From Carboxydocella thermautotrophica (GTDB taxonomy: Bacteria; Bacillota; GCA-003054495; Carboxydocellales; Carboxydocellaceae), in assembly GCA_003054495.1 (NCBI GenBank), contig CP028514.1, positions 1,527,501-1,591,500 of the forward strand: 64,000 bases of DNA. Direction: 5' to 3'. Every line of letters begins with the position of its first letter. The first letter of the stretch is position 1. Positions 45,455 to 60,575 of the stretch are shown piece after piece. The position numbers were made by a program, and so were the translations under genes. Under the pieces are notes generated by a model. The model ran no database searches, was not told where the DNA came from, and was given only the letters and a program-made list of their open reading frames with translations.

Positions 45455-46485
45455 AGGCTATCTTCTCCTTCTTCAATAACTCGCACTATTCGAACCCCCA
45501 AACGGCTTCCTATAGTTCCAGGCAATCCTAAAAATTTAGGAGTCTGCCCTATATATAAACGTACTAGTTCATCGCTTTTTGTATCAAGCTTAATAATATC
45601 CCCAACTTCCACTTCAAGTAGTTCTTTTATCGAAATCGTCCCTTCTCCCAATCGCACAGAAATATTAACATTAATTTTTTGCAGTTTGTTTTTCAATTTC
45701 TGTAAATATTCTACATCTGTTTCTTTCCTGCTTGTACCATACCAAATATGCGCATTTAATCTTCCTATGATTGGTTCTAATGTTAAATAGGGAATACATA
45801 TCGAAAGCATACCCGTTTGTTGCCCAATTCTTGCCTCAATCCCAATCAGTACAACCATTTCACTTGGTGAAACTATCTGAACAAACTGTGGATTACTTTC
45901 CTGACTCTCTAAAATGAAGTCAATTTTAAAGACATTACTCCATGCTTCTGAATAATAGCCAAGCAACGATGTTATTAATTTTTGTAAAACAACTTGTTCG
46001 ATATCTGTTAAATTACGAGCTTTTTCTACGCTTTCTCCAGGGCCACCCAATAACCTATCCAGCATTACAAAGCCGATAGCAGGATTTATATCAAGTAAAA
46101 CGTTACCATTTAACGGTTTGGAGGAAAGGACACTAACTATAGAAGGATTTTGTAATGAGTTTATTACTTCTTCATAAGTAATTTGTTCAACTGACACAAC
46201 AGTTAGCTGGGTCGCTATACGTAAATACGCTGACAAATAAGTTCCAGCTAATCTACAAAAATTCTCATGAATTGCCTGGATTGTATGCAATTGTTCCTTT
46301 GAGAATTTTGAAGGGCGACGGAAATCATAAACTTTTACAGTTGATTTTTTATTCGATCCATATAATAAACTATCCTGTTCATTATGGGAAATACTTGCTA
46401 AAGGCTCTTTACCATCTTTTTTTTCTTCTTGTGTTAATGCAGCTAGCAAAGCATCAATTTCTGCTTGTGAAAGTATTTCACTCAC
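45451..46485 (-). CDS. fliM: Flagellar motor switch protein FliM
   Basis: C-ring protein that binds CheY-P at its N terminus (EILSQAEIDALLAAL) and FliG through its middle domain; C-terminal SpoA domain (NVNISVRLGEGTISIKELLE). I use the GTG at 46485 (VSEILSQ), six bases after GGAG, since the TTG at 46500 has no ribosome site; this gives 344 residues. Base composition is clearly more AT-rich than in fliY, and codons end in A/T more often; see findings. Confidence 0.96.
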   Translation of the reverse strand: MSEILSQAEIDALLAALTQEEKKDGKEPLASISHNEQDSLLYGSNKKSTVKVYDFRRPSKFSKEQLHTIQAIHENFCRLAGTYLSAYLRIATQLTVVSVEQITYEEVINSLQNPSIVSVLSSKPLNGNVLLDINPAIGFVMLDRLLGGPGESVEKARNLTDIEQVVLQKLITSLLGYYSEAWSNVFKIDFILESQESNPQFVQIVSPSEMVVLIGIEARIGQQTGMLSICIPYLTLEPIIGRLNAHIWYGTSRKETDVEYLQKLKNKLQKINVNISVRLGEGTISIKELLEVEVGDIIKLDTKSDELVRLYIGQTPKFLGLPGTIGSRLGVRIVRVIEEGEDSL

Positions 46486-46503
46486 ACTACCAGCTCCCAA
46501 GCT

Positions 46504-46980
46504 TTATTTTTGTACAACAAAATCCGAGAAATATACATTTTTCACCATACCTGGGAGAGTTTTTTCATTAAGCGTCTTGGTAATTTCCTTGGCTAAATTA
46601 ACCATGGAATCTGACTGGGTAACATCTTCCAGTGTTTTACTTCTTAAAATATTAATAATATCATTGCGAATAATCGCTTCCCTCGCTTTAGCTGTTGCCT
46701 CATTTTTTGCATTAGTTAATTCTATAGTAACTTTGGTTTTTAAATAGGGTGAAGCTTCGGGATCATTTAAATTAACTATAAATTCTCCAGCTTCAATAAT
46801 CGGTCCTATTTCTGATGATTTGCTTTCAGTAGCTGCTGGTTGCTTGGTCAAACTCGGCAATAGACTTTTAATTAAAAAATAATTGGTTCCTACTACCGCT
46901 ACAACGATAATAATTATTGCAATCCCAATGGTAAAATAGATTTTGTTGCTTTTGGTTTCATTGTTGGTCTCTGAAGCCAA
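46504..46980 (-). CDS. fliL: Flagellar basal body-associated protein FliL
   Basis: Single-pass inner membrane protein that forms a ring around the stator and supports torque. The 158 residues have one membrane segment (YFTIGIAIIIIVVAVVGTNY) and the stomatin-like periplasmic domain with IVNLNDPEASPYLKTKVTIEL. TTG start after GGGGGTG. It lies in the AT-rich block between motB and fliM. Confidence 0.94.
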   Translation of the reverse strand: MASETNNETKSNKIYFTIGIAIIIIVVAVVGTNYFLIKSLLPSLTKQPAATESKSSEIGPIIEAGEFIVNLNDPEASPYLKTKVTIELTNAKNEATAKAREAIIRNDIINILRSKTLEDVTQSDSMVNLAKEITKTLNEKTLPGMVKNVYFSDFVVQK

Positions 46981-46998
46981 CCTTTACACCCCCATTTA

Positions 46999-47811
46999 TC
47001 ATTTAGGTTCTTTTTCTGATTCAGAAGAATGAAGAATGACTATATCAACCCTTCTATTTCTGCTGCGATTTTCTTCTGATGTATTAGGTACTATCGGCTT
47101 GTATTCACCATATCCTGCAGCAGATAATTTTTGGGGGGACAATCCATGTTTTTCAATCAAATAAATTAGTACCGTAGTAGCACGATCCGTTGATAATTGC
47201 CAGTTACTTGGATATTTACTATTTTTAATTGGTACGTTATCAGTATGTCCCTCAATTCTAATCGGATTATTTAGTTGTTTAAGTAATCCGGCCATCTGAT
47301 CCAGAACCTTTATTGCCATTGGTGTTAAATTGGCTTTACCTGTGTCAAACATAACAGAATCTGCCAGGCTTATAACCAAGCCCCGTTCCTCGATATTCAT
47401 AATCACTTTATTTTTAAATCCTAATTTAGCAGCATATTTCTCTATTTGTTCTTTTATTTTTTGAAACTCCTCATTTTCTTTTTTTCTGATTTCCATTTCC
47501 TGTTTTTTCTTTTTTAACAATTCCAAATCACTGCTACTTTGTTCTTCAGGTGCTGGTACCTGAACTGTCGAAGCTCCCCCTTGGTCAAGAACAACGCTAC
47601 TACCGCCACTTGAACTATTAAATGCAATTGATAAAGAATGCGCCAATGCTTGATATTTTTTGGCATCAGTCTGCGACATGGAATACATAATAACAAAAAA
47701 GGCTAGTAATAAGGTAATCAAATCGGCATATGTTAGCAACCAGCGAAGCTCGCCGCTGCCACCATGCCCCCCTCCACCGCCCGAACTGGCAGTTTTTTGT
47801 TTGCGTGCCAT
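46999..47811 (-). CDS. motB: Flagellar stator protein MotB
   Basis: Peptidoglycan-anchored stator subunit. The 270 residues have one membrane segment with the proton-accepting Asp in RWLLTYADLITLLLAFFVIM, a coiled-coil/plug region (about 85-120) and a C-terminal OmpA-like domain (IRIEGHTDNVPIKNSKYPSN, RNRRVDIVI). It follows motA by three bases. The ion specificity (H+ or Na+) cannot be settled from the sequence alone. Confidence 0.96.
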   Translation of the reverse strand: MARKQKTASSGGGGGHGGSGELRWLLTYADLITLLLAFFVIMYSMSQTDAKKYQALAHSLSIAFNSSSGGSSVVLDQGGASTVQVPAPEEQSSSDLELLKKKKQEMEIRKKENEEFQKIKEQIEKYAAKLGFKNKVIMNIEERGLVISLADSVMFDTGKANLTPMAIKVLDQMAGLLKQLNNPIRIEGHTDNVPIKNSKYPSNWQLSTDRATTVLIYLIEKHGLSPQKLSAAGYGEYKPIVPNTSEENRSRNRRVDIVILHSSESEKEPK

Positions 47812-47814
47812 ATA

Positions 47815-48597
47815 TTATTTCTCCCCTCCTTCAACAGGGAGCTGAGACCTAATTTTGGGAGATAAAAATGCCATTAGCTTTTCTTTTACAATCCTGGGGT
47901 TTTCACCTGCCTGAATGGAAAGTATTCCCTCTATCATTATTTCTCTGATAAGTTGTTCAGTGCTACTTTTACCTTTTAGTTTGTTTGCCAGCGGCAAAAA
48001 GATAACGTTTGCTGAAGACACCCCATAAAATGTTGCTATAAAAGCGGTGGCAATAGCCGGCCCTAGCCCGGCTACATCCGATAAGTTCCCCAAAACGTGA
48101 ACCAGCCCCATAACAGTCCCAATAATCCCCATCGTCGGTGCAAAACCACCGGCAGTTTCAAAGATACTTGCGCTGCGATGATGTCTTTGTTCTAAAAAGG
48201 CCAATTCTGTTTCCAAAATATTTCTAACAAGTTCCGGGTCTGTACCGTCAACGATTAATTGTATTCCTTTACGTAAAAAATCATCGTCCATGCTACTTGT
48301 CTCATTTTCTAAAGCAAGTAAACCTTCTCTTCTGGCTCTTTCAGCAAAACTGACCAGGTTTTCAATAACACTGATCGGGTCAGTTTTTTGAGTAGTAAAA
48401 GCTATTTTTAATACCTTTCCGATTTCTTTTATATCTTCAAGGGAATAACAGATCAGGGTAGCCCCTATGGTGCCGCCAAAGACCAGTAAAGCCGCTGATT
48501 CGTTGATTAATGAATGTAGTTCCCCACCTTCTAAAATAACACTGATCAACAGCGAAGCAATCGCTAAAACCAGACCAATGATTGTCGCTAAGTCCAC
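47815..48597 (-). CDS. motA: Flagellar stator protein MotA
   Basis: Stator subunit with four membrane segments; the 260 residues include the cytoplasmic charged loop and the family signature GTVMGLVHVLGNLSDVAGLG (near 155) plus GPAIATAFIATFYGVSSANV. GTG start. In an operon with flbD upstream and motB downstream, as in many Clostridia. Confidence 0.96.
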   Translation of the reverse strand: MDLATIIGLVLAIASLLISVILEGGELHSLINESAALLVFGGTIGATLICYSLEDIKEIGKVLKIAFTTQKTDPISVIENLVSFAERARREGLLALENETSSMDDDFLRKGIQLIVDGTDPELVRNILETELAFLEQRHHRSASIFETAGGFAPTMGIIGTVMGLVHVLGNLSDVAGLGPAIATAFIATFYGVSSANVIFLPLANKLKGKSSTEQLIREIMIEGILSIQAGENPRIVKEKLMAFLSPKIRSQLPVEGGEK

Positions 48598-48607
48598 TAT
48601 TTACACC

Positions 48608-48805
48608 TCACTTCTCTACCGGGAACATACCAATCTGGCGTTTATAGTGAATTACTTTTCCAATAATTTCATCTACACTTTCCTGCACAACAACTTTTTT
48701 GCCACTAACAAGGGATATCACCGTATCTGGGGTTTGTTCTATAAACTCTATTTGCTCGCAATTGACAACAAACTCTTTTCCATTTAAACGCGTGACCTTT
48801 ATCAT
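48608..48805 (-). CDS. flbD: FlbD/SwrD family small flagellar protein
   Basis: The 65-residue protein is needed for full motor torque in Bacillus (SwrD). Family pattern: VTRLNGKEFVVNCEQIEFIE, then PDTVISLVSGKKVVVQESVD. It lies between flgE and motA, the normal location. The first gene of the AT-rich block. Confidence 0.93.
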   Translation of the reverse strand: MIKVTRLNGKEFVVNCEQIEFIEQTPDTVISLVSGKKVVVQESVDEIIGKVIHYKRQIGMFPVEK

Positions 48806-48823
48806 TTATGTCACCTTCTAATT

Positions 48824-48855
48824 AATCCAAGCAGCCGAGAGCGGCTGCTTGGATT
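48824..48855 (-). other. 14-bp stem-loop in the flgE-flbD intergenic
   Basis: A perfect inverted repeat (AATCCAAGCAGCCG with CGGCTGCTTGGATT, 4-base loop) lies just after flgE. The minus-strand sequence after it is AATTAGAAGG, with no T-run, so it is not a standard terminator. It probably stabilises or processes the operon mRNA; it also marks the point where base composition changes. Confidence 0.8.
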
Positions 48856-48866
48856 ATCAATTTAAA

Positions 48867-50951
48867 CTACCTCTTTAGATTAACCAGTTCCTGTAACATT
48901 TCATCAGAAGTAGTTATAATCCGTGAATTGGCCTGGAACCCCCTCTGGGTCACAATCATATCAGTGAATTCCTGGCTCAAATCCACATTGGACATTTCCA
49001 GCGCCCCGGGGGTAATAGAACCCCGTCCACCTGTGCCAGCCGGGCCAATCTGGGCCAAACCGGAGTTGTTGGAACGTTTGAAAAGGTTTTCGCCCATTTT
49101 CATCAACCCGCCCGGATTATTGAAATTAGCAATAGCAATTACTGCCAGATCTTTGGTAAAACCGTTAGAGAATATACCGGTAACTGTCCCATTCTTGTCG
49201 ATGGTAAAGCTCTGCAAAGTACCCGCCGGGTTCCCGTTCTGGTTAACAGCACTGGCTGTAAAAGGCGAAGTGTACTGAGTAAGGGACTTGAAATCAGGAA
49301 TAATATTTACTGTCTTGGCCCCGGAAGGGGAAAAACTATAAGCTCTGGTCAAATTTATATTTTTCGGATCGATAATCAAGTTTGCCAGTCGGGTTTCATC
49401 AGCTTTTAACTGACCGCTCTGATCGAAAATAATATAGCCATATCTGGGATTAAGTTTATCGATTCCCAGGCTAGTTTGTACCTTTAACAAATCATCAACA
49501 TATTCAGGACTATATGTTGTCGTGTACCATCTAGCGGTATCTACAGTACTACCGCCATATTCGATAGTTATCGTGTCTCCATCCTTAACCTTGATACTTC
49601 TGGTTGCGGCATTAGATGCGCCATTGGTAAAATTAAAATCACTTTGGAAAATACCTGTATCAGGACCTGTTTCTGTTAAAGTTATTGTAAAACCAGTAGG
49701 GTCACTATCCGAATAAATTTTTATTGTTATAGTTTCAGCTACTGAAGGATCAGTATTGGCAGCGGGATCTGTTACGGTAAGCGGATAAGGAACACCTAAA
49801 TTATCAATATAATAATTATTGCCAAATACGGTGCCCGCTCCAGTATACGGTGCAGTTACATTCAAACTATAGTCTCCGGAAAATTTGGGGTTGCCAGCAG
49901 CTACCTGTTTATTTGCCTCCACTGCCGCATAAGCTGCTTCTAAAATAAATAGCTTTTGGGCTACATCCAATGAATCAAAATTAGCCGCGCCCCCCGTGAG
50001 ATACGATACCTGGTCACGAATGGAAAAGGCTGGATTACCAGTATCCTGAACCAGATCAGAGAATTTTAAGTCCTTAGTAATCGGCTTGCCATCTATGGTA
50101 ACATTAGGGTTTGCCAGAAAAGCTGCTCTCTGGGCCAGGTTTAATACCTGATATTGCGTTTCCAGCTTCGTGGTTGGTGTAGGAATAGGATCTCCAGGGC
50201 CTCCAGGTAATAACGAATCATAGGTGTCAAATTGACCGATAAAAGTTTGAATTATCGCATCGTTATTACCTAAGCTAACTGTATAACCCCAGGTGGTATT
50301 TCCATCAGCATCAACAGATAATTTTTCGAAGTTTGTCACTATAGTATGGGCATTGCCAACAGAATCATAAACCTCTACCTGTGTCTGATGAACAGTCCCA
50401 AGTTTGGCACTGGCATCCAGATTGTTGGCATAGGTCACTGCTTCGGTTGCCTGAGGTTTCATGGACTGACCGATGGGAATAGTGATATTAGTTAAGCTGG
50501 TATTAGTGACTATCTTGCCATAGGCATCAACTGTGGTCCAACCCATTACCTTCATCCCGTTGGAGGCAAAAATCAGATTGCCATCCTGGTCCAGGTCAAA
50601 AATCCCGGTTCTGGTATAGAGCTGATCCGCACCATCAGAAAGGATAAAGAAACCATCCCCCTGCAGGGCCAGGTCAGTGGTCTTGCCAGTAGACTGCAGG
50701 TTACCCTGGGTCTGAACATAATCGATGCTGGCCACCTGGACACCCAGACCTACCTGTTGAGCATTGACGCCACCGCGCCCCCCTTGAGGAGCAGAGGCAC
50801 CTCGAATGGTTTGTACCAGCATTTCCTGAAAATTAACCCGTCCTCTTTTAAACCCAACCGTATTTATATTAGCAATATTATTACCGATCACATCCATTTT
50901 GGTTTGATGATTTCTCAAACCCGACACACCAGAGAATAATGAACGCATCAT
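48867..50951 (-). CDS. flgE: Flagellar hook protein FlgE with an inserted Ig-like domain
   Basis: Builds the extracellular hook. The 694 residues (usual FlgE 400-500) carry the conserved N-terminal rod domain (SLFSGVSGLRNHQTKMDVIG, NNIANINTVGFKRGRV), the D1/D2 hook domains and the C-terminal SNVDLSQEFTDMIVTQRGFQ. The excess is in the middle: a poorly conserved part (about 255-390) and an Ig-like segment (about 390-475) with TITIKIYSDSDPTGF and TLTETGPDTGIFQSDF, a pattern common in surface-layer and adhesin proteins. ATG at 50951 is preferred; a TTG two codons earlier is closer to GAGGAGG. Confidence 0.93.
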   Translation of the reverse strand: MMRSLFSGVSGLRNHQTKMDVIGNNIANINTVGFKRGRVNFQEMLVQTIRGASAPQGGRGGVNAQQVGLGVQVASIDYVQTQGNLQSTGKTTDLALQGDGFFILSDGADQLYTRTGIFDLDQDGNLIFASNGMKVMGWTTVDAYGKIVTNTSLTNITIPIGQSMKPQATEAVTYANNLDASAKLGTVHQTQVEVYDSVGNAHTIVTNFEKLSVDADGNTTWGYTVSLGNNDAIIQTFIGQFDTYDSLLPGGPGDPIPTPTTKLETQYQVLNLAQRAAFLANPNVTIDGKPITKDLKFSDLVQDTGNPAFSIRDQVSYLTGGAANFDSLDVAQKLFILEAAYAAVEANKQVAAGNPKFSGDYSLNVTAPYTGAGTVFGNNYYIDNLGVPYPLTVTDPAANTDPSVAETITIKIYSDSDPTGFTITLTETGPDTGIFQSDFNFTNGASNAATRSIKVKDGDTITIEYGGSTVDTARWYTTTYSPEYVDDLLKVQTSLGIDKLNPRYGYIIFDQSGQLKADETRLANLIIDPKNINLTRAYSFSPSGAKTVNIIPDFKSLTQYTSPFTASAVNQNGNPAGTLQSFTIDKNGTVTGIFSNGFTKDLAVIAIANFNNPGGLMKMGENLFKRSNNSGLAQIGPAGTGGRGSITPGALEMSNVDLSQEFTDMIVTQRGFQANSRIITTSDEMLQELVNLKR

Positions 50952-51028
50952 ACGCAATCAAACCTCCTCTTTTTGTACCGCTTCAGTCAGTCCACGGCAC
51001 CTGGGCCTCCTCACTGAGGTCCAGCCCG

Positions 51029-51406
51029 TTAATCCATAATTACAGCACAATCTATATTGGTAAAGACATTTTCCTTCATTGCTTCTTTGGTTACCGCTGT
51101 AATTACAGTCCTGTTTTTGATACTTACCACATAAGCCGTATTATCCAGCCAGATTAGCGCTTCCTTTGCTCCTTTTGCAGCAGCTTTGGCGACAGCATCT
51201 TCCAGTTTTTGCTGAGCCCTTTCACTGATGGTGCTGTTTCTGAGGCCCAATCGTTCTAAGGCATGGCCGGAAAACTTCAACTTTTGCTTGTTTACCGCTT
51301 GTTGCAGGATCCCCGCAAAATTAACGTTTTTGCTGATGCCATGCCCAGGCTGATTGACAGCAGGTTTTATACTCTGACCGGTAATTCCGCGTAACATCTC
51401 ACTCAT
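51029..51406 (-). CDS. Flagellar operon protein (TIGR02530 family)
   Basis: The 125-residue protein matches the pattern of the uncharacterised family found between flgD and flgE: NFAGILQQAVNKQKLKFSGH then ERLGLRNSTISERAQQKLEDAV and the strand ALIWLDNTAYVVSIKNRTVI. It has no signal peptide. Position in the rod/hook section suggests a hook assembly role, not shown experimentally to my knowledge. Confidence 0.85.
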   Translation of the reverse strand: MSEMLRGITGQSIKPAVNQPGHGISKNVNFAGILQQAVNKQKLKFSGHALERLGLRNSTISERAQQKLEDAVAKAAAKGAKEALIWLDNTAYVVSIKNRTVITAVTKEAMKENVFTNIDCAVIMD

Positions 51407-51425
51407 AGCTCTCTATCCCTCCCGG

Positions 51426-51821
51426 TCACAGGCTAACTTCCAAAATCTGTTCAATGCTTACAACTTGATCATTAACTGTCAGTTTTACCTGTCCATCTAC
51501 CTTCTGAGCAGCAGTTACCAGCCCGGAAATAACTCTTTCCTGCCCTTTTTCATCAGTCAATTTGGCTTTAACCGTCTTGCCGAGCAGTTCAGTTCCTCGT
51601 AACAAGTTAACATTTAAGTTCAGGTTCTGCATTTGTTCCAGGCTGCTGAACTGGGCCAGTTGGGCAATAAAATCCTTATCTTCCATAGGGCGCAGCGGAT
51701 CCTGATAGCGCAATTGAGTGGTCAGCAACTGTAGAAACGCATCTTTGCCCAGGTCTTTATTATTTGCTTTTGGTGCTACCCCACCCTGATTGGTAGTTTG
51801 CTGAACCTTACTGATAGTCAT
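51426..51821 (-). CDS. flgD: Flagellar hook-capping protein FlgD
   Basis: Temporary cap for hook polymerisation. The 131-residue short form has the N-terminal LGKDAFLQLLTTQLRYQDPL motif and MEDKDFIAQLAQFSSLEQMQ, the two hallmark blocks; the C-terminal FNIII/tudor domains of long FlgD are reduced. ATG at 51821 after AAGGAGG. It follows fliK. Confidence 0.95.
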   Translation of the reverse strand: MTISKVQQTTNQGGVAPKANNKDLGKDAFLQLLTTQLRYQDPLRPMEDKDFIAQLAQFSSLEQMQNLNLNVNLLRGTELLGKTVKAKLTDEKGQERVISGLVTAAQKVDGQVKLTVNDQVVSIEQILEVSL

Positions 51822-51834
51822 CTTTCTCACCTCC

Positions 51835-53355
51835 TTAAGCTCGATAATTAATCTGACTCAGTTTGATTTCAGCAGCAGTTTCGCTGTGCTCCAGCTCTTC
51901 CTGCAACCATGTACGAAGGGAACGTTTTGTGAACTGCTTGAACATACCCGAATTTCTCTCTCGCTGTTCCTGCTGAAACTGCTGAAATATCCCGTTCTGC
52001 AGGTCTGAAACAGTAAGTTGTCCCAGTTTCAGCCCCTGGTCAGCCAGGCTTTGTTTGAGATTAGCAAGATCTGCCTCAATAGTTTGACGCACGAAACTAT
52101 CCAGAACCTTGATTTCCCCTTGCAAAACTCCGTTTTCCACTTTGAGGACAATTTCCAGCTTCCCTAGATGTTCAGGTTTTAATTGAATTTCAATGGTCGT
52201 TTTTTGCTGTTCCCGAACCACCTGGCTCTTCTGAACGATTTGTTCATTAATCTGTCTGGTCACTTGCTGTTTATCTGCCGGTGCTTGAACTGGCTCACTA
52301 TCCCTGTGGAATTCCGGTAGAGAAAAATGCCTGGTTTGAGCAACTGGTTGATCTGAAGTTTCCCAATTCTCACTTGCCATTTCCTCGCCAGGTTCCCCTG
52401 GCTGAACTGAGGGCCCATTTTCCTTCACATAGATAAGCACTTTCTCTTTCAAACCTTCTTCTCCAGAATTTGCAACCAGCGTAGCCTTTAACATTTCCAG
52501 CTTTTCCTGTTGCGGAACCTGATGCTGTTCTTTTGCGATTTGCGGTAGATTTAAAACTTCATTAACCCGTACCATCCTGGGTTGTACCATTATGGGTTCC
52601 CGGGATCGCATTTCAGGTAGCTTAAATTGAAGCGATAAACCGGAATCTGCTTTCGATACGACTAATGCAGATTCTTGCTTCTGTGCTACCTGGCCAGTTA
52701 AAGCCTTAATTAGTTTCATAGATTGCATATCAGCTGGCTGCTCAAATTGTAGTGATAAACCGGAATCTTTTATTTGAGGTTTAAGGTCTGGCATATCTGC
52801 CTTGGGCATAACTGCTGGAGATTCTTGTTTTAGCACTATCAGATCAGCTAAAGGCTTAACTGGAAACTCATGAAACAATGATGTTTGTCCAGTTGAGGGC
52901 TCCTTGTCTTCGACAGGTATTGCTGTGTCTGCTAAAATCTGCCCTTGTCCTGGCAGTCTTACCCCTAAAACAGCAGGGGAGACAGTAGGCGGTTGCCTTA
53001 CTGCATCTACTAATATTGGTCCCTGGCCCGGTTCTTGAACTTGAACTTGAACTTGAACCTGATCCAGTAGCTGCCCCTCTTGTTCAGTAATCATCTGGGA
53101 TCGGGGCGCTAATGATGGTATGGAGAGCAGGTTAAAAAGTTCAAGAGGCAAATCCTTAGCTCTGTTAATGCCTTCACCTTCCTCTTTCTGTTTGACTGGC
53201 TCAGCCTGTTCCTGTTTGCTTTCCTGCACAGGAGCCAAAACAGAAAGCAGCAATGAGGTAAAATCCCCTGCTTTCCCATTTGCATTGCCTGCAGTCTCAA
53301 TTTTCTTGAGTTCAGGAAACCCCAGCAGCAAGGCGGCTAAATTGACATTTTCCAC
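51835..53355 (-). CDS. fliK: Flagellar hook-length control protein FliK
   Basis: Secreted molecular ruler that measures hook length and triggers the FlhB switch. The 506 residues have a long low-complexity, Gln/Pro/Val-rich ruler part (about 1-340) and a compact C-terminal switch domain (about 385-480) with TTIEIQLKPEHLGKLEIVLK and LKQSLADQGLKLGQLTV. I use the GTG at 53355, five to six bases after GAGGAGGTGAG. The ruler part contains a hexanucleotide repeat (53035-53058) and an internal duplication; see findings. The start lies close to the ylxF stop. Confidence 0.93.
   Translation of the reverse strand: MENVNLAALLLGFPELKKIETAGNANGKAGDFTSLLLSVLAPVQESKQEQAEPVKQKEEGEGINRAKDLPLELFNLLSIPSLAPRSQMITEQEGQLLDQVQVQVQVQEPGQGPILVDAVRQPPTVSPAVLGVRLPGQGQILADTAIPVEDKEPSTGQTSLFHEFPVKPLADLIVLKQESPAVMPKADMPDLKPQIKDSGLSLQFEQPADMQSMKLIKALTGQVAQKQESALVVSKADSGLSLQFKLPEMRSREPIMVQPRMVRVNEVLNLPQIAKEQHQVPQQEKLEMLKATLVANSGEEGLKEKVLIYVKENGPSVQPGEPGEEMASENWETSDQPVAQTRHFSLPEFHRDSEPVQAPADKQQVTRQINEQIVQKSQVVREQQKTTIEIQLKPEHLGKLEIVLKVENGVLQGEIKVLDSFVRQTIEADLANLKQSLADQGLKLGQLTVSDLQNGIFQQFQQEQRERNSGMFKQFTKRSLRTWLQEELEHSETAAEIKLSQINYRA
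53035..53058 (-). repeat. Tandem hexanucleotide repeat inside fliK
   Basis: Four perfect copies of TTGAAC (GTTCAA on the coding strand), encoding alternating Val-Gln. A copy-number change alters FliK by two residues per unit without shifting frame. Confidence 0.95.
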
Positions 53356-53359
53356 TCGC

Positions 53360-53875
53360 TCACCTCCTCTCATTCAGCATTTTGGTATAACCAGCCGCCT
53401 GGTCAGGCGACATAGCCGCCAAAATTTTTGCCACCACATCGGCTTCCATAGCCGCCAGGATGTTGACAGTGAGGTTATTATCCAGCTTAACCAGTACCGC
53501 CGCTGCTTGCTGCGGTTTCATCTCAGTATAGTACGCAGCCAGCTGTTGGGCTTTTTTGTCATTATTCTCAAGCCGGCTTTGAACCAGTTCCTGTTGCATT
53601 TGTTCCATTTCAGCCTTTTGTTTATTGATTTGATCAGTTAAAAGGTTAGCTTGCTTTTCTGTTTCCGTCAATTTTTTCCTGAGCTGTTCATTCTCTTGTT
53701 TGAGTTTCTGGATTTCTTCTTCCAATAAGGCTTGCTGATTTTTAACAGTTTTAGTTGTAGCAGTTTTTTCAGTTTTCCGCCAGCTCCAAATCTGGTAATG
53801 GTCCAGGGCCCAGGCCGCTCCTGCAACAACCCCTGCTAACAGCAGGACAAATAAAATCCATTTTACTACCCTCAT
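53360..53875 (-). CDS. ylxF: YlxF/MotE-like flagellar protein
   Basis: The 171 residues start with a membrane segment (MRVVKWILFVLLLAGVVAGA), continue with a long coiled coil (about 45-95) and end in an MgtE_N-like domain (MKPQQAAAVLVKLDNNLTVN then MEADVVAKILAAMSPDQAAG). This is the layout of Bacillus YlxF and the proteobacterial motor chaperone MotE. Start at ATG 53875 after GGGGGC; the frame extends 19 codons upstream into fliJ. Located between fliJ and fliK as in Bacillus. Confidence 0.88.
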   Translation of the reverse strand: MRVVKWILFVLLLAGVVAGAAWALDHYQIWSWRKTEKTATTKTVKNQQALLEEEIQKLKQENEQLRKKLTETEKQANLLTDQINKQKAEMEQMQQELVQSRLENNDKKAQQLAAYYTEMKPQQAAAVLVKLDNNLTVNILAAMEADVVAKILAAMSPDQAAGYTKMLNERR

Positions 53876-53888
53876 TCCTTTGCCCCCT

Positions 53889-54338
53889 TTAGCTATGTTC
53901 CTGGTACCAGTACCGGACGAGGGCCAATTCATCTAAAATAATCTGCTCTTCTTTTAATTGTTTTTGCCGATGTTCCTCCCATGCTTTGGCCCGGAGGTTT
54001 TCTAGCATTTTGCGATAGCGCATTTTCTCCTGCAGCATTGCCATTTCATCCTGATATGCTTTTTCAGCTTCTGCAACCTGAGTTTGTTGTCTTGAGATCT
54101 GTCTAGCCAATTTATCCAGATAAAACTGCATCTCAATAAGCTCCTGAACTGAGCAGCCCTTTAACATGTTTTCCTGTTGAGAATAAAGGGCAGTTTGCTT
54201 ATCCTCCATGAGGGATTCCAGCGTTTCCTGTTCTTTTCTCAGCTGCCGCTCTGCCACCCTGGTTTTGTTTAACTGCTGTTCTTCCAGTTTCACAGCCAGA
54301 TCTAACAGGGCTTGTAAACGAAACTTAAACTTCCTCAT
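53889..54338 (-). CDS. fliJ: Flagellar export chaperone FliJ
   Basis: Coiled-coil stalk of the FliHIJ ATPase complex. The 149 residues are almost wholly helical (KFRLQALLDLAVKLEEQQLN through the C-terminal region), typical in length. The ATG overlaps the fliI stop by four bases. Confidence 0.93.
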   Translation of the reverse strand: MRKFKFRLQALLDLAVKLEEQQLNKTRVAERQLRKEQETLESLMEDKQTALYSQQENMLKGCSVQELIEMQFYLDKLARQISRQQTQVAEAEKAYQDEMAMLQEKMRYRKMLENLRAKAWEEHRQKQLKEEQIILDELALVRYWYQEHS

Positions 54339-55666
54339 GGCCTACTTCCTCGCTCTGTCAGTTGCAGCAAGCGCTGCCAGGTCTCAGTAAAATCCCAGTT
54401 TTCCTCGGTATCCTGTTGCAAAAATCCTTTAATCTCCTCTAGATTGGCGATGACATAATCCAGTACCGGGTTGGTTCCATTTACATAGGCACCAATTTCA
54501 ATTAAATCTCTGGCCTCCTGATAAGTGGCCAGAAAACTGCGGAATCTGGCCGCCGCCAGTCTTTGTTCTTTGCCGACTATTTCTGTCATTACCCGGCTGA
54601 CACTATTGAGTACATCAATGGCAGGATAATGATTCTGCGCTGCCAGCTGACGCGATAAAACTATATGGCCATCTAGAATACCTCTTACCGCATCAGCAAT
54701 AGGCTCATTATGGTCATCCCCATCAACGAGAACGGTGTAAAGACCGGTAATAGAACCCTTTTCACCGGTACCTGCTCTTTCCAGCAATTTAGGTAAGAGA
54801 GCAAAAACCGATGGTGTGTATCCTCTGGTTGCCGGCGGTTCCCCTACTGCCAATCCGATTTCCCGTTGTGCCATGGCAAAGCGGGTAATAGAGTCCATCA
54901 TCAGCATTACATCATAACCCTGATCTCGAAAATATTCGGCTATAGCAGTAGCCACCATGGGAGCCTTCAGGCGAACCATAGCCGGTTGGTCAGAAGTGGC
55001 CACCACCACCACCGACCGTTTTAACCCTTCCTCCCCCAGGTCCCGTTCAATGAACTCCCTTACTTCCCTTCCCCGTTCCCCTACCAGAGCGATAACATTA
55101 ATATCAGCCTTGGTGTTGCGGGCGATCATGCCCAGCAAGGTGGATTTACCCACCCCGCTACCAGCAAAGATACCGATCCGCTGCCCCTTTCCCAGAGTCA
55201 AAAGACCATCTATGGCTTTCACTCCAACAGCGATGGGTTCAGAAATGCGCCTCCTGGTCAAGGGGTTGGGGGGTGTATTATGAACAGGATAAACCATACT
55301 GCCTTTTATTTCCCCTTTGCCATCGATAGGCTGGCCCAAACCGTCCAGGATGCGGCCCTGCAACTCTGGTCCAACGGGAATTTCCAGATTGCGCCCCAGA
55401 GCCAGCACCTCGCATCCCGGTCCTATCCCGCTGGTATCAGCCAGGGGCATCAGTAATACTTTCTTTTCCTTAAACCCCACCGCTTCGGCAAGAATCCTCG
55501 GACCGCCATTTCTACTGCTAATAGCACATATCTCCCCCAGCTGCACCCCGGGCCCATTGGCTTCAATAGTAAGGCCAATTATCTGAGTAACCCTACCCTT
55601 AACCCGGATCAATTCGGTGTTTTCAATTGACTCCAGATAGCGCCATTTCTTCGCTGTCCAGCTCAT
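54335..55666 (-). CDS. fliI: Flagellum-specific ATPase FliI
   Basis: Energises flagellar type III export. The 443 residues match F1-beta-like ATPases: Walker A IGIFAGSGVGKSTLLGMIAR (near 170), Walker B VMLMMDSITRFAMAQREIG (near 255) and the export-specific GEPPATRGYTPSVFALLPKL. The start overlaps the fliH end by 44 bases, and the ribosome site is weak, so coupled translation is likely. Confidence 0.97.
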   Translation of the reverse strand: MSWTAKKWRYLESIENTELIRVKGRVTQIIGLTIEANGPGVQLGEICAISSRNGGPRILAEAVGFKEKKVLLMPLADTSGIGPGCEVLALGRNLEIPVGPELQGRILDGLGQPIDGKGEIKGSMVYPVHNTPPNPLTRRRISEPIAVGVKAIDGLLTLGKGQRIGIFAGSGVGKSTLLGMIARNTKADINVIALVGERGREVREFIERDLGEEGLKRSVVVVATSDQPAMVRLKAPMVATAIAEYFRDQGYDVMLMMDSITRFAMAQREIGLAVGEPPATRGYTPSVFALLPKLLERAGTGEKGSITGLYTVLVDGDDHNEPIADAVRGILDGHIVLSRQLAAQNHYPAIDVLNSVSRVMTEIVGKEQRLAAARFRSFLATYQEARDLIEIGAYVNGTNPVLDYVIANLEEIKGFLQQDTEENWDFTETWQRLLQLTERGSRP

Positions 55667-56435
55667 CTTCCATCACACCTTTTAAGCTTTCAGCCAGCAG
55701 CTGCATTTGCTCTTCCAGAATCGCTTCCACCCGGCCATACTGAGTTTCCAGAATCACACTACCAGGCGACAAACTGGAATCCGGTTGAATCCTTAGCTTG
55801 CGAAGGGTAGGATGATTGGCGATTATCTCATCCAGCCAGCCACTGACTTGCTCTACAGCCTGAGGGGCCACATACAAAATTCCTTGCTCACTGTCCAGCA
55901 CTTTTTCCACTACTGCTTCAACCTGCCCGCGGAGATAGTCTGGATTAATTTCCGGCAGCGCTTTCAAAATGCGGGCAGAAATGGCTAGTACTAGTTCTAC
56001 CATCAATTCTTCAGCTTCCTTGAGAGCCCGTCTTTTGTTTTCCGTAGCCGCCCTAATAATAGCTGTTAAAGCAGAAATTTTTTCTTCCCATTGCGCTAAT
56101 GCCTGTTTTTGTCCTTCCTGCAGTCCCTGTTGAAAAGCCTGGGTGCGCAGGTTTTCCCCTTCTTGACGGGCATTGGCCAGAATGGCTTCCGCTTCATCAT
56201 GGGCTTCAGCGATTATTACCTGAGCCTGTTCTTTAGCCTGGTTGATTAAATCCGCCACCATTTCTTCTGTTTCTTTTAAGATGCTTTCCCGGACCTTTTC
56301 CAGCTCTTCCGCATCTGGTTTAAATATTTCAGGTCCAGTTTCTTCCCCGGTTTCATTCAGCTGCAAAATTCTGAGCCGATGAACCGGCAAAGGAGCCAGA
56401 TTAGCCACATGAGCAGATTTGATGACTTTAGACAA
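55623..56435 (-). CDS. fliH: Flagellar assembly protein FliH
   Basis: Regulates FliI and links it to the C-ring. I start at TTG 56435 (SKVIKSAHVANLAPLPV, a typical FliH start), nine bases after GGAGGAG; GTG 56456 would give a longer, less typical N terminus. The 270 residues include a coiled coil (about 60-130) and a C-terminal domain (about 180-260) with EVEKVLDSEQGILYVAPQAV-type ATPase-stator features. Overlaps fliG by eight bases. Confidence 0.92.
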   Translation of the reverse strand: MSKVIKSAHVANLAPLPVHRLRILQLNETGEETGPEIFKPDAEELEKVRESILKETEEMVADLINQAKEQAQVIIAEAHDEAEAILANARQEGENLRTQAFQQGLQEGQKQALAQWEEKISALTAIIRAATENKRRALKEAEELMVELVLAISARILKALPEINPDYLRGQVEAVVEKVLDSEQGILYVAPQAVEQVSGWLDEIIANHPTLRKLRIQPDSSLSPGSVILETQYGRVEAILEEQMQLLAESLKGVMEDELDSEEMALSGVN

Positions 56436-57432
56436 TGATCTCATCTCCTCCCCCACGTGCTATGATGATTTCGCCAGCTTCTTCTAGCTTGCGGATAATG
56501 TTAACAATTCGCTGCTGCGCATCCTCGACATCCCGCAGACGGACCGGGCCCATAAACTCGATGTCCTCTTTGAGCATCTCCGCTGCCCGCTTGGACATAT
56601 TGCGACGAATTTTGTTACCAACTTCTTCGCTGGCACCTTTCAGGGCAAGAGCCAGATCCTTGCTGTCAACCTCCCGCAGAACTTGCTGGATTGCCCGGTC
56701 ATCCAGTAACACAATATCCTCGAAGACAAACATGCGCATTTTGATTTCTTCTGCCAGTTCTGGATTCTGAATTTCCAGGCTTTCCATAATCACCTTTTCG
56801 GTAGAACGATCCACGCGGTTCAATATATCTACAATGCTCTGTAATCCGCCGGCAGTAGTGTAGTCCTGGGCAAAAACAGATGACATCTTGCGCTCCAGAA
56901 CCTTTTCAATTTCCTTGATAACCTCCGGTGACGTACGATCCATTAACGCTATCCGTCTCGCTACATCCACCTGAATTTCCGGCGGCATAGCCGACAGGAG
57001 CTGAGCTGACTGATCCGGATTTAAGTAAGCCATCACCAGCGCAATAGTTTGAGGATGCTCACCCTGAATGAAGTTCAATAACTGGGATGGATCAGATTTG
57101 CGAATAAAGTCAAATGGTCTAACCTGAAGGTTTAAGGTCAGTTTTTGGATAATGTCAATGGCTTTTTGAGTGCCCAGGGCTCGCTCCAGGATTTCCCGGG
57201 CATAGTCGATACCACCCTGGTTAATATACTCTTTGGCTATACAAAGCTGATGAAATTCACGCAACACCTGTTCCGTATATTCCCGGCTGACCTTGCGCAA
57301 ATTGGCAATTTCAAAGGTCAGTTTCTCCACTTCATCTTCCTTCATTTTTTTCAGCACCTGAGCTGAGAGCTCAGGACCAAGGGCTATTAGCAATATTGCT
57401 GCTTTCTGCTTTCCTGTTAGACCTTTGGCCAA
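56428..57432 (-). CDS. fliG: Flagellar motor switch protein FliG
   Basis: Rotor protein that contacts MotA. The 334 residues show the three domains: FliG_N (KQKAAILLIALGPELSAQVL), middle (EHPQTIALVMAYLNPDQSAQ, the EHPQ motif) and C-terminal torque domain (FEDIVLLDDRAIQQVLREVD with conserved charged residues). TTG start after GAGGTG. Confidence 0.97.
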   Translation of the reverse strand: MAKGLTGKQKAAILLIALGPELSAQVLKKMKEDEVEKLTFEIANLRKVSREYTEQVLREFHQLCIAKEYINQGGIDYAREILERALGTQKAIDIIQKLTLNLQVRPFDFIRKSDPSQLLNFIQGEHPQTIALVMAYLNPDQSAQLLSAMPPEIQVDVARRIALMDRTSPEVIKEIEKVLERKMSSVFAQDYTTAGGLQSIVDILNRVDRSTEKVIMESLEIQNPELAEEIKMRMFVFEDIVLLDDRAIQQVLREVDSKDLALALKGASEEVGNKIRRNMSKRAAEMLKEDIEFMGPVRLRDVEDAQQRIVNIIRKLEEAGEIIIARGGGDEIIV

Positions 57433-57443
57433 CTACATCACCT

Positions 57444-58982
57444 CTATTCCTCGGCCAACCAGGTGCGTAACAACCCGGCCACATTTTCCGGTTCTTTTTT
57501 GGCCAGTTGCTCAATTTCTTCCTGAATTTTTTCCAGTTCAGATTTTTCTTGGGTCTTTTCAATGCTGACGCCGGCCAGAAGCTGTTCCACCGAAACCGGC
57601 TCAGGCTGTATTCCGCCTTTAGGAGTTAACACCTTCTTAAGCATGAAAGCAAGCCAGATTAGAACTATCGCAATCCCCGCCCAGATTGCTATCTGTTTGT
57701 AAAGTTCCATTTTTTCAGCTTTTGTCAGCTCAGCTGCCAGAGCCTGTTGATCAGATGTATCGAAAGGAATGGCGGTGACTTTAATCATATCACCACGAGC
57801 AGTATCAACACCCAGGGCACTGGCAACAACATCCTGCACTGCTCCTACTTGATCCTCTTTTACCCTTTGCCCATCCACCATCACTGCTACTGACAGGCGC
57901 TTAATTGAGCCAGGCGCTACGACACGATGTTCTTGAGTACGGTCAATCTCATAGTTGCGGATTTTATTGCTCTTATTGCTTTCACTGCTGTTATTCTGCT
58001 GAGTTATTTGCTGATAACCGGGGATATTTGTGGTCGTTCCAGGAACTCCCTGCGGAATAGTACTGCTGCCCTTCTGGTTTTCTTCCTGAATCTGCTCTGA
58101 CCGCGTTACTTTATCTCCCCAGTCCTCTTTGTTGATTTCAACCCGGTCAAAGTCCAGTTCAGCAGTCACTCTAACCACTGCCTTACCCTGTCCAAAAACC
58201 CGGTCCAGCATAGACTGGGCTGATTTTTCCATATCCTTTTCCAGCTGCTGTTTTAATTCCAGCTGGGATGCTGTTAGCTTCGAACTATTTTTCTCTTCAC
58301 TGCCCAGATTAATATCATCACTTAAACTCTGCATATTGGAATCAACAATTGTTACATTTTCCGGCTTTAAACCTTTAACACTATTGGCTACCAGACGGAT
58401 CAGGCCCACTACCTGCTCTTCTTTTAATTTCTGGTAGGGTTTCAGTTTCAGCATTACTGCCGCTCTAGCTTCCTGTTCGTTCTCCAGGGCAAACAAACTG
58501 TTCTGCGGCAATACAATATGAACCCGCGCCTGCTCAACCTCATTCATTCGCATGATAGTGCGGGTCAGTTCTCCTTCCAATGCCCGCTGGTATTTGGCCT
58601 GACGATCGGTATCTGTCTCCCCGAATTTAGGCTGGTCGAATAATTCAAAACCCACCACGCCACCAGTAGGTACACCATCACTGGCCAGTTTTAAGCGAAT
58701 AGAAGCTTGCTGGTCAGCGGGTACCAGGATGGTCTTGCCATCCGCTGAAACCTGATATGGCACTTTCATCTCATCCAGTTTGGCTGTGATGGCACCAGCG
58801 TCGGCTGCTTCCAGGTTAGTAAAAAGGGGCTGATAATCAGGCTGCCGGTAAAAATACAAAATCGCCCCAATGGCTACAACAACAGTCACTGCCGCCGCCA
58901 GGGCCAGTATTTTCTGGGTTTGGTTGGCCTGTTGCCAGAATTGCATCAGTTTTTCCCTGACTTTGGCATATAACTCTTTCAT
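57444..58982 (-). CDS. fliF: Flagellar MS-ring protein FliF
   Basis: Forms the membrane ring on which the flagellum is built. The 512 residues have an N-terminal membrane segment (KILALAAAVTVVVAIGAILY), the PrgK/YscJ ring-building domains (about 45-230), a disordered periplasmic loop (about 285-330), a second membrane segment (IAIWAGIAIVLIWLAFML near 425) and a C-terminal FliG-binding tail. ATG at 58982 chosen over GTG 58997. Confidence 0.97.
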   Translation of the reverse strand: MKELYAKVREKLMQFWQQANQTQKILALAAAVTVVVAIGAILYFYRQPDYQPLFTNLEAADAGAITAKLDEMKVPYQVSADGKTILVPADQQASIRLKLASDGVPTGGVVGFELFDQPKFGETDTDRQAKYQRALEGELTRTIMRMNEVEQARVHIVLPQNSLFALENEQEARAAVMLKLKPYQKLKEEQVVGLIRLVANSVKGLKPENVTIVDSNMQSLSDDINLGSEEKNSSKLTASQLELKQQLEKDMEKSAQSMLDRVFGQGKAVVRVTAELDFDRVEINKEDWGDKVTRSEQIQEENQKGSSTIPQGVPGTTTNIPGYQQITQQNNSSESNKSNKIRNYEIDRTQEHRVVAPGSIKRLSVAVMVDGQRVKEDQVGAVQDVVASALGVDTARGDMIKVTAIPFDTSDQQALAAELTKAEKMELYKQIAIWAGIAIVLIWLAFMLKKVLTPKGGIQPEPVSVEQLLAGVSIEKTQEKSELEKIQEEIEQLAKKEPENVAGLLRTWLAEE

Positions 58983-59010
58983 ATCCACCTTCCTCACTAA
59001 CCTTTAACTT

Positions 59011-59313
59011 TTATACCTGCATGCGCATGATTTCCTGATAAGCCTCAATTACCTTATTGCGTATTTGTACCGTTAATTGCAAAGCCAGATTAGCTTTTTC
59101 CCCGATAATCATTACGGTGTGCAAATCAGGGGCCTGACCGGTCAAGAGTTGCATCCTGGCGGCATCGCTCTGTTTTTGCAACTCATCCACTTTGGCCAAA
59201 TTGGCAGCCAGTATTTCACTAAAACTGGGACCCTCACTGTTAGTAACAGTTTTTGTTTTATCCAACCCCAGGGGTTGAGCCAATCCGCTGCTTTGGATTG
59301 CTTCGATTTTCAT
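59011..59313 (-). CDS. fliE: Flagellar hook-basal body protein FliE
   Basis: Links MS-ring and rod. The 100 residues carry the FliE pattern SFSEILAANLAKVDELQKQS-like block and the C-terminal KANLALQLTVQIRNKVIEAY-QEIMRMQV end. Sits between flgC and fliF. Confidence 0.95.
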   Translation of the reverse strand: MKIEAIQSSGLAQPLGLDKTKTVTNSEGPSFSEILAANLAKVDELQKQSDAARMQLLTGQAPDLHTVMIIGEKANLALQLTVQIRNKVIEAYQEIMRMQV

Positions 59314-59335
59314 TCTTTCACCCCTTTTCCGCTAA

Positions 59336-59788
59336 TTAACGGCCAATATCCAGAGCCTTGACCGCCATGGACTTAGCAGCATTCAAGGCGGTAACATTGG
59401 CTTCATAAGCTCTCGTAGCTGAAATCATGTCTACCATTTCCGTCACTACATTCACATTCGGCATTGTCACATACCCCTGGTTATCGGCATCCGGATGCTG
59501 GGGGTTGTAAACTCTGGGTAAAGGACTCTGGTCTTCTGCAACCTGAACTACCCTAACTCCCTTTCCCGCAGGAACAGGTTTTTGCTGCCCCAGAGCATTC
59601 TGTAAAGCCTGGGCAAAGGTAAGCTCATCGGCCCGCTCTGCAAAAACTACCATTTGCCGCCGATAAGGGCCTCCGTTCTGCGTTCTGGTAGTATTAACAT
59701 TAGCCAGATTGTTGGAAATAACATCTAGCCGCAACCTCTGGGCCGTCAATCCTGAAGCACTGATTTCCAGACTGTCAAACCAGCTCAT
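59336..59788 (-). CDS. flgC: Flagellar basal-body rod protein FlgC
   Basis: Proximal rod protein. The 150 residues have the N-terminal rod motif SGLTAQRLRLDVISNNLANV (then NTTRTQNGGPYRR) and the C-terminal PNVNVVTEMVDMISATRAYE motif. Starts three bases after the flgB stop region. Confidence 0.97.
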   Translation of the reverse strand: MSWFDSLEISASGLTAQRLRLDVISNNLANVNTTRTQNGGPYRRQMVVFAERADELTFAQALQNALGQQKPVPAGKGVRVVQVAEDQSPLPRVYNPQHPDADNQGYVTMPNVNVVTEMVDMISATRAYEANVTALNAAKSMAVKALDIGR

Positions 59789-59791
59789 TAA

Positions 59792-60217
59792 TTAGCGCCT
59801 CCCTTCGGAGATCACATATTTCAGCTTGGCAATTTCCGCTCCAATTTGTCTGGATAAAGCTTCATAATAAATGGTGTTTTTCGCCAGTTCAGCCATTTCC
59901 ACATCAATATCTACATTGTTACCATCATTTCGGAGAGAAGTATCCTCCTGCCGGACAAGCTGAGGTTGAACAGCCACAATTGGGACAGAACCAATGGGCA
60001 AATGTTTAGCATCCGTTCTGACACCTGCAAGGGTAGTCTTTTCTCCCTGTCCTAACGCTGCAGCCAGAACCTCTTCAAAAACCACATCACTGCGTTTAAA
60101 ACCAGGTGTGCTCACATTAGCAATGTTATTGCTTAAAACCTGATGCCGCAGGCTGGCTGCATCCAGACCCCGTTCTAAAAAATTGATTGTCGAAAGATTG
60201 AGAATGCGCTCGATCAT
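59792..60217 (-). CDS. flgB: Flagellar basal-body rod protein FlgB
   Basis: Proximal rod protein and first gene of the fla/che operon. The ATG at 60217 (MIERILNLSTINFLERGLDA) lies after GGAGGG; the frame is open upstream but that part is the riboswitch leader. The 141 residues contain LRHQVLSNNIANVSTPGFKR and the C-terminal NVDIDVEMAELAKNTIYYEA. Its expression should be gated by the leader terminator at 60232-60258. Confidence 0.97.
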   Translation of the reverse strand: MIERILNLSTINFLERGLDAASLRHQVLSNNIANVSTPGFKRSDVVFEEVLAAALGQGEKTTLAGVRTDAKHLPIGSVPIVAVQPQLVRQEDTSLRNDGNNVDIDVEMAELAKNTIYYEALSRQIGAEIAKLKYVISEGRR

Positions 60218-60231
60218 CTCGCTATCCCTCC

Positions 60232-60258
60232 AAAAAATAAACCCGGCAGAGGCCAGGG
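60232..60258 (-). terminator. Riboswitch-controlled intrinsic terminator ahead of flgB
   Basis: On the minus strand CCC-T-GGC pairs with GCC-GGG (six GC pairs, one bulged T, CTCT loop), followed by TTTATTTTTT. Its ascending arm (CCCTGG) can instead pair with CCA..AGGG from the 3' strand of the aptamer closing helix, giving an antiterminator. Confidence 0.8.
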
Positions 60259-60267
60259 CAAGAGAAC

Positions 60268-60356
60268 CCTTTGGTAACCCGGCTGCCATACTCATCTGAG
60301 CTACAGGCCCGTGGCTTTGCGTCTTGGCCTTTCGACCAAGTTGCCCTGAGCAAAGG
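60268..60356 (-). ncRNA. Cyclic di-GMP-I (GEMM-I) riboswitch aptamer
   Basis: The minus strand contains the GEMM-I landmarks in order: closing helix CCTTTG (60351-60356) with CAAAGG (60268-60273); the conserved AGGGCAA; a hairpin CTTGGTC-GAAA-GGCCAAG with the GNRA tetraloop; the ACGCAAAGCC block; a second arm (around CTCAGATGAG); and the 3' conserved GGCAGCCGGGTTACC. This closely follows the class-I consensus. It precedes the flgB-led operon, as riboswitch Cd1 does in Clostridioides difficile. Confidence 0.95.
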
Positions 60357-60418
60357 ACAGGACTTTAGTCCCATATTATTGCTTTTTGTTTAACCATTTT
60401 CGTTTTTCTTCGTTTTTT

Positions 60419-60459
60419 GTCATCTTATGACGCATTATATATTCGCCGCAGCTGGCGAA
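60419..60459 (-). promoter_or_regulatory. Putative fla/che promoter with two inverted repeats
   Basis: A perfect TATAAT (60434-60439) lies about 80 bases upstream of the aptamer; the -35 region at 17 bases (AATTTC) is poor, so activation may be needed. TTCGCC-N6-GGCGAA (60442-60459) covers the spacer, and GTCAT-N3-ATGAC (60419-60431) covers the predicted start. Between 60218 and 60534 nothing else gene-like is seen; this non-coding stretch holds promoter, aptamer and terminator. Confidence 0.55.
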
Positions 60460-60531: not shown

Positions 60532-60559
60532 AAAAAAAACCACCAATAAGGTGGTTTTT
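60532..60559 (-). terminator. Intrinsic terminator after codY
   Basis: AAAAACCACC pairs with GGTGGTTTTT (10 bp, loop of five) with eight T on the minus strand. It separates codY from the fla/che leader, so the flagellar operon relies on its own promoter. Confidence 0.9.
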
Positions 60560-60575
60560 CATCATTTTCTAAAAA

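Follow-up and report, generated by a model that had tools for sequence, protein, structure and literature searches.

A c-di-GMP-I riboswitch upstream of flgB as the probable transcriptional off-switch of a flagellar gene cluster

Related riboswitches and the present leader

The closest described system is Cd1 (Cdi1_3), which lies upstream of flgB in Clostridioides difficile and is a proven transcriptional off-switch (PMC9262584, PMC3649979, PMC6366702). At high c-di-GMP, transcription in C. difficile terminates prematurely and flgB expression is lowered (PMC3649979, PMC6366702, PMC11477304). NMR data place the 3' strand of the aptamer in the Cd1 antiterminator through the pairs G147-C87 and C148-G86, and C87 is also the Watson-Crick partner of the ligand (PMC9262584). 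The position that selects between c-di-GMP and c-GAMP corresponds to G20 in Vc2 and G11 in Cd1 (PMC9262584). Relatives within GEMM-I include on-switches, such as the pilM c-GAMP riboswitch of Geobacter metallireducens; its aptamer is highly homologous, but it differs in being an on-switch, in responding to c-GAMP and in having a terminator that contains an aptamer strand (PMC9262584). For Bc1 of B. thuringiensis, a combined regulation of transcription and translation has been proposed (PMC11218506).

The leader considered here, found within a 64-kb window (the whole stretch of DNA that was analysed), resembles Cd1 in its aptamer class, its place before flgB, the terminator after the aptamer, the presence of sigD in the controlled operon and the predicted off-direction (PMC9262584, PMC3649979, PMC6366702, PMC11477304). 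The Cd1 antiterminator takes the 3' aptamer strand (PMC9262584), whereas in the folding model of the present leader the arm pairs more strongly with the 5' core strand. In addition, transcription of Cd1 starts from a promoter 496 bp before the start codon, and termination yields an RNA of about 160 nt (PMC3649979), while here the U tract adjoins the ribosome-binding site (RBS); and the NMR work on Cd1 reported no P1 helix (PMC9262584), while here a 7-bp P1 can form. Other flgB leaders in the phylum that match RF01051 (c-di-GMP-I) or RF03167 (c-di-GMP-I-GGC) likewise have a sense-strand aptamer, usually with a terminator after it, although their expression platforms differ. The kind of riboswitch is already known; if it departs from Cd1, it does so in the aptamer strand captured by the antiterminator, which is the possible new detail.

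The aptamer, the terminator and upstream elements

A c-di-GMP-I aptamer occupies the minus strand between codY (60576-61367) and flgB, where inspection of the sequence had first suggested a GEMM-I element (Table 1). The Rfam covariance model RF01051 matches 60355-60270 over its entire length (model positions 1-87) and scores 75.2 bits (cut-off 35; E 6.1e-13). No other Rfam match at the gathering cut-off is listed for the window, apart from a lower-scoring, overlapping one from the same clan that the search tool omitted. The landmarks of the class are present, namely the GAAA tetraloop, ACGCAAAGCC (60322-60313) and GGGUUACC, and the closing helix P1 can form with seven pairs, including one U-G. 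The core reads GGC, or GGG counting from the base before (60346-60344); GGC is found in 43 of 46 tabulated aptamer matches, a figure that counts the window and the tandem copies. At the position selecting between c-di-GMP and c-GAMP, the aptamer carries G rather than A, as in c-di-GMP binders; the core base equivalent to Vc2 G20 is presumed, and every candidate for it is G. The leader is identical in a second genome of the same species (G001; 0 differences over 330 bases compared), and its overall stability is ordinary for its composition (z -1.09, with 28 of 200 shuffles folding equally well).

Table 1. Features of the flgB leader and of the gene cluster that follows it (coordinates within the window).
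Feature	Position	Strand	Basis or detail
c-di-GMP-I (GEMM-I) aptamer	60270..60355	-	Rfam RF01051
P2 hairpin, GAAA tetraloop at 60333-60330	60324..60339	-	Rfam pairs
Aptamer 5' core strand UCAGGGCAA, 5' partner in the strongest predicted antiterminator	60341..60349	-	
Closing helix P1, 5' strand UCCUUUG	60351..60357	-	pairs with 60273-60267
Closing helix P1, 3' strand CAAAGGG; also within the originally predicted antiterminator	60267..60273	-	
Terminator hairpin CCUGGC-CUCU-GCCGGG	60242..60257	-	-8.7 kcal/mol
Switching strand UUGCCCUGG, overlaps rising arm of terminator	60253..60261	-	
U tract UUUAUUUUUU	60232..60241	-	
Putative flgB ribosome-binding site GGAGGG	60226..60231	-	sequence
flgB	59792..60217	-	TIGR01396, 125.4 bits
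Candidate -10 box TATAAT	60434..60439	-	sequence
Inverted repeat TTCGCC..GGCGAA, just upstream of candidate -10 box	60442..60459	-	
Hairpin and U tail after codY, probably codY terminator	60534..60560	-	role inferred
fla/che gene cluster	27704..60217	-	best NCBIfam/Pfam matches; plausibly one transcript
PilZNR + PilZ gene (YcgR-like), inside cluster between flhG-like gene and cheB	35715..36359	-	Pfam PF12945 E 2.9e-20, PF07238 E 2.9e-18

The terminator expected ahead of flgB is also present, as a hairpin followed by a U tract. The hairpin is weak, with six pairs of which one is G-U, and it begins 12 nt past the end of the aptamer, with which it has no strand in common. It can coexist with the folded aptamer, as the joint fold is the minimum-energy structure of transcripts ending at 60242, 60236 and 60232. 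Farther upstream, the promoter scan did not list the candidate -10 box, and no convincing -35 element was seen there. The inverted repeat beside this box is a possible operator for a regulator of the flagellar operon.

Competing antiterminator pairings

Two pairings of the terminator's rising arm with the aptamer could act as antiterminators. In the first, CAGGGCAA (60348-60341) in the 5' core pairs with UUGCCCUG (60261-60254) through eight exact pairs, or nine including a U-G. This region is the best duplex partner of the arm in the upstream leader (ten pairs with a one-base bulge, -17.0 kcal/mol), and the duplex energy of the arm is -16.2 kcal/mol with the 5' core compared to -10.4 for the best partner on the 3' side. 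The second is the complementarity between the 3' strand of the closing helix and the CCCTGG arm, on which the original prediction was built and which does exist: CCAAAGGG (60274-60267) pairs with CCCUGG (60258-60253) through six pairs with a 2-nt bulge. The two would disturb the aptamer differently, as the 3'-strand pairing abolishes P1 but may leave the core pairs, whereas the 5'-core pairing occupies 60349-60341.

The predicted balance between these pairings changes as the transcript grows. Probabilities are means over the eight exact 5'-core pairs, the inner four 3'-strand pairs and the six terminator pairs, from an energy model that takes no account of tetraloop docking or other tertiary contacts, the ligand or the polymerase. 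At 37 C, a transcript ending at 60266 holds the aptamer core (0.93) and P1 (0.91). At 60255, the 3'-strand pairing is ahead (0.72 vs 0.19 for the 5' core), while from 60253 to 60246 the 5'-core pairing reaches 0.90-0.95 (0.91 at 60253, 0.95 at 60251), P1 is lost and the 3'-strand pairing is at most 0.04. With the 5'-core pairing in place at 60253, the aptamer core falls to 0.02 and P1 to 0.00; an antiterminator excluding the ligand-bound fold was thus found in silico. The two pairings are equal at 60244 (0.46 each), after which the 3'-strand pairing leads across 60242-60232 (0.46-0.59): at 60242 it stands at 0.46, with the 5' core at 0.28 and the terminator at 0.24, and at 60232 at 0.59, with the 5' core at 0.13 and the terminator at 0.20. 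Beyond the termination point, at 60226, the values are 0.06, 0.64 and 0.16, respectively. At 55 C, a temperature picked without knowledge of the organism, the 5'-core pairing remains ahead at 60232 (0.44 vs 0.23). The model thus predicts the 5'-core pairing to be the stronger option while the terminator is still incomplete, and a mixture of states at the termination point, with the 3'-strand pairing ahead at 37 C.

The ensemble energies at 60232 are -53.3 kcal/mol unconstrained, -52.8 with the 3'-strand antiterminator, -52.1 with the terminator, -51.8 with the 5'-core antiterminator and -51.3 with the aptamer and P1. No forced state is more than 2 kcal/mol above the unconstrained ensemble, so that the binding of ligand could shift the balance. 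A third candidate antiterminator, GCCGGG of the aptamer (60283-60278) with the arm, was rejected, its best fold being 1.6-3.7 kcal/mol worse than those of its two competitors at each of three transcript lengths.

An off-switch could also work through the 3'-strand antiterminator, as originally proposed. This variant, whose probability forms part of that of the off-switch as a whole, is a credible second choice. It would form a local hairpin with an 8-nt loop and hence be fast, it leads at 60255 and again at 60242-60232 at 37 C, and Cd1 itself pairs the 3' aptamer strand (PMC9262584). Against it stand its six bulged pairs, its near absence at 60253-60246 and the preference of the arm for the 5' core as duplex partner. 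The proposed antiterminator therefore holds as a possible structure that leads at some transcript lengths, but not as the strongest one.

c-di-GMP-I aptamers in flgB leaders and elsewhere

All four genomes examined in the same class contain c-di-GMP-I aptamers. In G002, from another family of the same order, an aptamer precedes flgB (leader L035), while G003 has no aptamer match on the contig carrying its best FlgB match. Across the phylum, FlgB was found in 247 of 299 genomes, and leaders were taken from 120 of these in order of FlgB score among the matches listed, so that the sample is not random. The genome of the window, its same-species neighbour and two contig-edge cases (G104 and G077) were left out, and leaders L091 and L137 are shortened by contig ends.

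Scanning with R1, a model built from seven aptamers, gave a clear match in 43 of the 120 leaders, in each case on the strand of flgB, and all but one of these (42) pass the Rfam cut-off for RF01051 or RF03167. Rfam was run on 59 of the leaders, comprising all 43 R1-positive ones and 16 others, and also on L010. By batch, it confirmed 20/20, 19/20 and 3/3 of the R1-positive leaders, with L054 failing; the 16 additional leaders were all negative, and the other 61 are negative by R1 alone. Two matches were not counted, one in L086 (E 0.17, antisense) and a second one in L018 (E 0.52).

With the window included, a terminator-like hairpin of -5 kcal/mol or better occurs at most 80 nt after the aptamer in 40 of 44 leaders, compared to 51 of 220 shuffles. 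The corresponding counts are 30/44 vs 20/220 at -8 kcal/mol and 26/44 vs 5/220 at -10 kcal/mol; for L018, L022, L025 and L092, the aptamer ends were taken from Rfam in this count. The aptamer is thus present in about a third of the sampled leaders, nearly always with a terminator after it, and the arrangement before flgB is ordinary and widespread in the phylum rather than special. Within the portions of the literature returned by a search, no paper treated such flagellar leaders in Desulfotomaculum or Moorella, and the match for Carboxydocella concerned a manganese riboswitch.

Several flgB leaders depart from the common form. In L026 (346-434), A replaces the first G of the core GGC; this may be the position that sets the selectivity of c-GAMP binders, and the ligand may differ. 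Tandem aptamers precede flgB in L024 (33-116 and 341-424), where the two downstream stretches are much alike, and in L093 (151-234 and 307-390). Very long inserts are seen in the aptamers of L018, L019, L022, L025, L057 and L092, with Rfam matches of 149-187 bases. The aptamer of L054 (449-534), below the Rfam cut-off, looks decayed and resembles the intact one of L065 from the same genus (g39).

The genome of the window holds six c-di-GMP-I aptamers in total. Two of the five others, the mutually similar L002 and L003, lean to the 5' side, their arms pairing with it at 0.49 and 0.55, respectively; the arm favours the 3' side in L004 (0.57) and the middle of the aptamer in L001 (0.77), and L005 has no terminator by the rule used. 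The aptamer of L002 (G000:C1:804476-804563) precedes a gene with HD_5 and HATPase-type domains. HD_5 is presumably of the kind that occurs in HD-GYP phosphodiesterases, and the arrangement could be a feedback of c-di-GMP on its own breakdown. In L001 (G000:C1:2514326-2514412), the aptamer and, after it, a strong hairpin that ends in a U-rich tail precede a Flp-type pilin gene and an ORF resembling a prepilin peptidase by eye.

Chance controls on the 5'-core pairing

The predicted probability of the 5'-core pairing was matched by none of 400 mononucleotide-shuffled arms and by none of 40 arms taken from other flgB leaders and put in its place. When the short arm was shuffled with its dinucleotides preserved, a harder but coarser test, 4 of 20 cases attained the observed value. 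An exact 8-bp match arose in 30 of 5000 shuffles for the 5' strand and in 332 of 5000 for any place in the aptamer.

For the duplex comparison across leaders, 41 of the 44 were used, the window included, as L075, L077 and L093 have no terminator by the rule applied. Terminators were set by hand in L018, L022, L025, L029, L034, L057, L063, L089 (a weak hairpin of -2.5) and L092; for L097, the hand setting was not found and the automatic terminator was used. The upstream tandem copies in L024 and L093 were left out of the duplex, shuffle, exact-match and terminator counts. The mean duplex on the 5' side was -8.1 compared to -7.2 for swapped arms (2 of 300 permutations equally good) and that on the 3' side -9.2 compared to -8.0 (0 of 300), both modest effects, while the aptamer middle gave little signal (-9.9 vs -9.4; 11 of 300). 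At least six exact pairs are found on the 5' side in 10 of the 41 leaders and on the 3' side in 9, where the 5' side takes in bases just upstream of the core. The exact match is longer than in all but 10 of 200 shuffles in five leaders on the 5' side and four on the 3' side, with about two expected. When pairing was compared with shuffles in 37 leaders (the 41 without L018, L022, L025 and L092, whose aptamer ends are shortened by model R1), the excess was slight on both the 5' side (mean 0.288 vs 0.236) and the 3' side (0.212 vs 0.174).

A single antiterminator universal to flgB leaders was looked for across the 41 leaders and not found. The arm is predicted to pair with the 5' side of the aptamer in some leaders, such as L030, L029 and L026, and with the 3' side in others, such as L065, L074 and L103; in L030, the arm matches the strand CGGGCGUC that precedes the core. 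In L035, the relative from the same order, neither the 5'-core nor the 3'-strand pairing is conserved. Given this mixed picture in the shuffles and the other leaders, the 5'-core wiring is likely rather than established.

The controlled gene cluster

About 38 minus-strand genes extend from flgB as far as 27704, where a YceG-domain gene ends; 37 of them have a family match and one is a small ORF (48608-48805) that we take to be flbD-like; names follow the best NCBIfam or Pfam match, several of which are below the curated cut-off. The first part comprises flgB, flgC, fliE-fliJ, an MgtE_N-domain gene, fliK, flgD, TIGR02530, flgE and the small ORF. The middle holds motA/motB-like genes, fliL, fliM, fliY, cheY, fliO-fliR, flhB, flhA, flhF and an flhG-like gene, and the last part a YcgR/PilZ gene, cheB, cheA, cheW, cheC, cheD, sigD, FapA, a DUF6115 gene and the YceG-domain gene, after which come rpsB, tsf, pyrH and frr. 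Terminator-like sites on both strands are near the shuffle level from 42300 to 60240 (16 vs 18.0 expected) and above it from 23600 to 42300 (28 vs 19.2), counts that make a single transcript from flgB to the YceG-domain gene plausible. The run of some 38 genes, sigD included, agrees with the original prediction. Its extension to all che genes was too strong, since the cluster holds cheY, cheB, cheA, cheW, cheC and cheD, whereas CheR matches lie at three other places in the genome (two strong, one barely above the cut-off).

Proposed mechanism and alternatives

The leader is very probably a c-di-GMP-I riboswitch that acts as a transcriptional off-switch of the flagellar operon. Computation and homology to Cd1 both support the riboswitch class, the target operon, the terminator and the predicted direction, with motility genes off at high c-di-GMP, as had been proposed from the sequence. 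The steps below combine the computed aptamer, terminator, alternative pairings and predicted balance with an inferred promoter, single transcript, ligand binding, kinetics and termination. The polymerase would make the aptamer first, and the aptamer would fold on its own. With c-di-GMP bound, the aptamer and its closing helix would hold, the terminator (60257-60242) would form and transcription would halt ahead of flgB, at the U tract. If no ligand is bound, the nascent strand UUGCCCUGG (60261-60253) would invade the aptamer and pair with the 5' core (60349-60341), and this pairing may then pass to the local one with the 3' strand of P1. As either antiterminator would remove the rising arm of the terminator, the polymerase would read on. 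That the 5'-core pairing is needed for the off-switch is about evenly balanced.

Action on translation, in addition to or instead of transcription, through a refolding that hides the U tract and the flgB RBS, is unlikely. In the minimum-energy fold of 60375-60230, CCAAAGGGU is paired with the last bases of the U tract and the initial GG of the RBS, and the proposal for Bc1 of B. thuringiensis combines transcription and translation (PMC11218506). However, the RBS-hiding helix contains three G-U pairs within a fold that is not unusually stable as a whole (z -1.09), and the terminator and U tract lie ahead of the RBS, in keeping with the terminator after the aptamer in 40 of 44 leaders. Less probable still is a decayed or non-functional copy, for which the weak 6-bp terminator and the decayed-looking aptamer in another genome (L054, an R1 match below the Rfam cut-off) might speak, but the full model is matched with 75.2 bits and G002 (L035), from another family of the order, likewise has an aptamer before flgB. 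An on-switch, in which ligand favours read-through as in GEMM-I relatives such as pilM (PMC9262584), is the least probable reading and was rejected: the terminator begins 12 nt past the aptamer and has no strand in common with it, and either candidate antiterminator would disrupt the aptamer core or the closing helix, so that ligand should favour the terminator.

Implications for flagellar regulation

If the off-switch holds, c-di-GMP would directly control the main flagellar cluster at a single point, as in C. difficile. GGDEF domains give 12 matches above the cut-off in the genome. The YcgR-like PilZ gene within the cluster hints at a possible second point of action for c-di-GMP, on the motor in addition to transcription through the riboswitch. 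It may tentatively be proposed, with rather less than even confidence, that two interchangeable off-switch wirings exist, one through the 3' strand as in Cd1 and one through the near-invariant 5' core as here (and perhaps in the two sister riboswitches and several flgB leaders), where the switching strand and the ligand would compete for the same nucleotides. As the 5' core strand hardly varies, the 5'-core wiring could arise repeatedly; if it is true, this would suggest how new c-di-GMP-I off-switches come about, namely when a terminator arm matches this core strand and thereby becomes an antiterminator.
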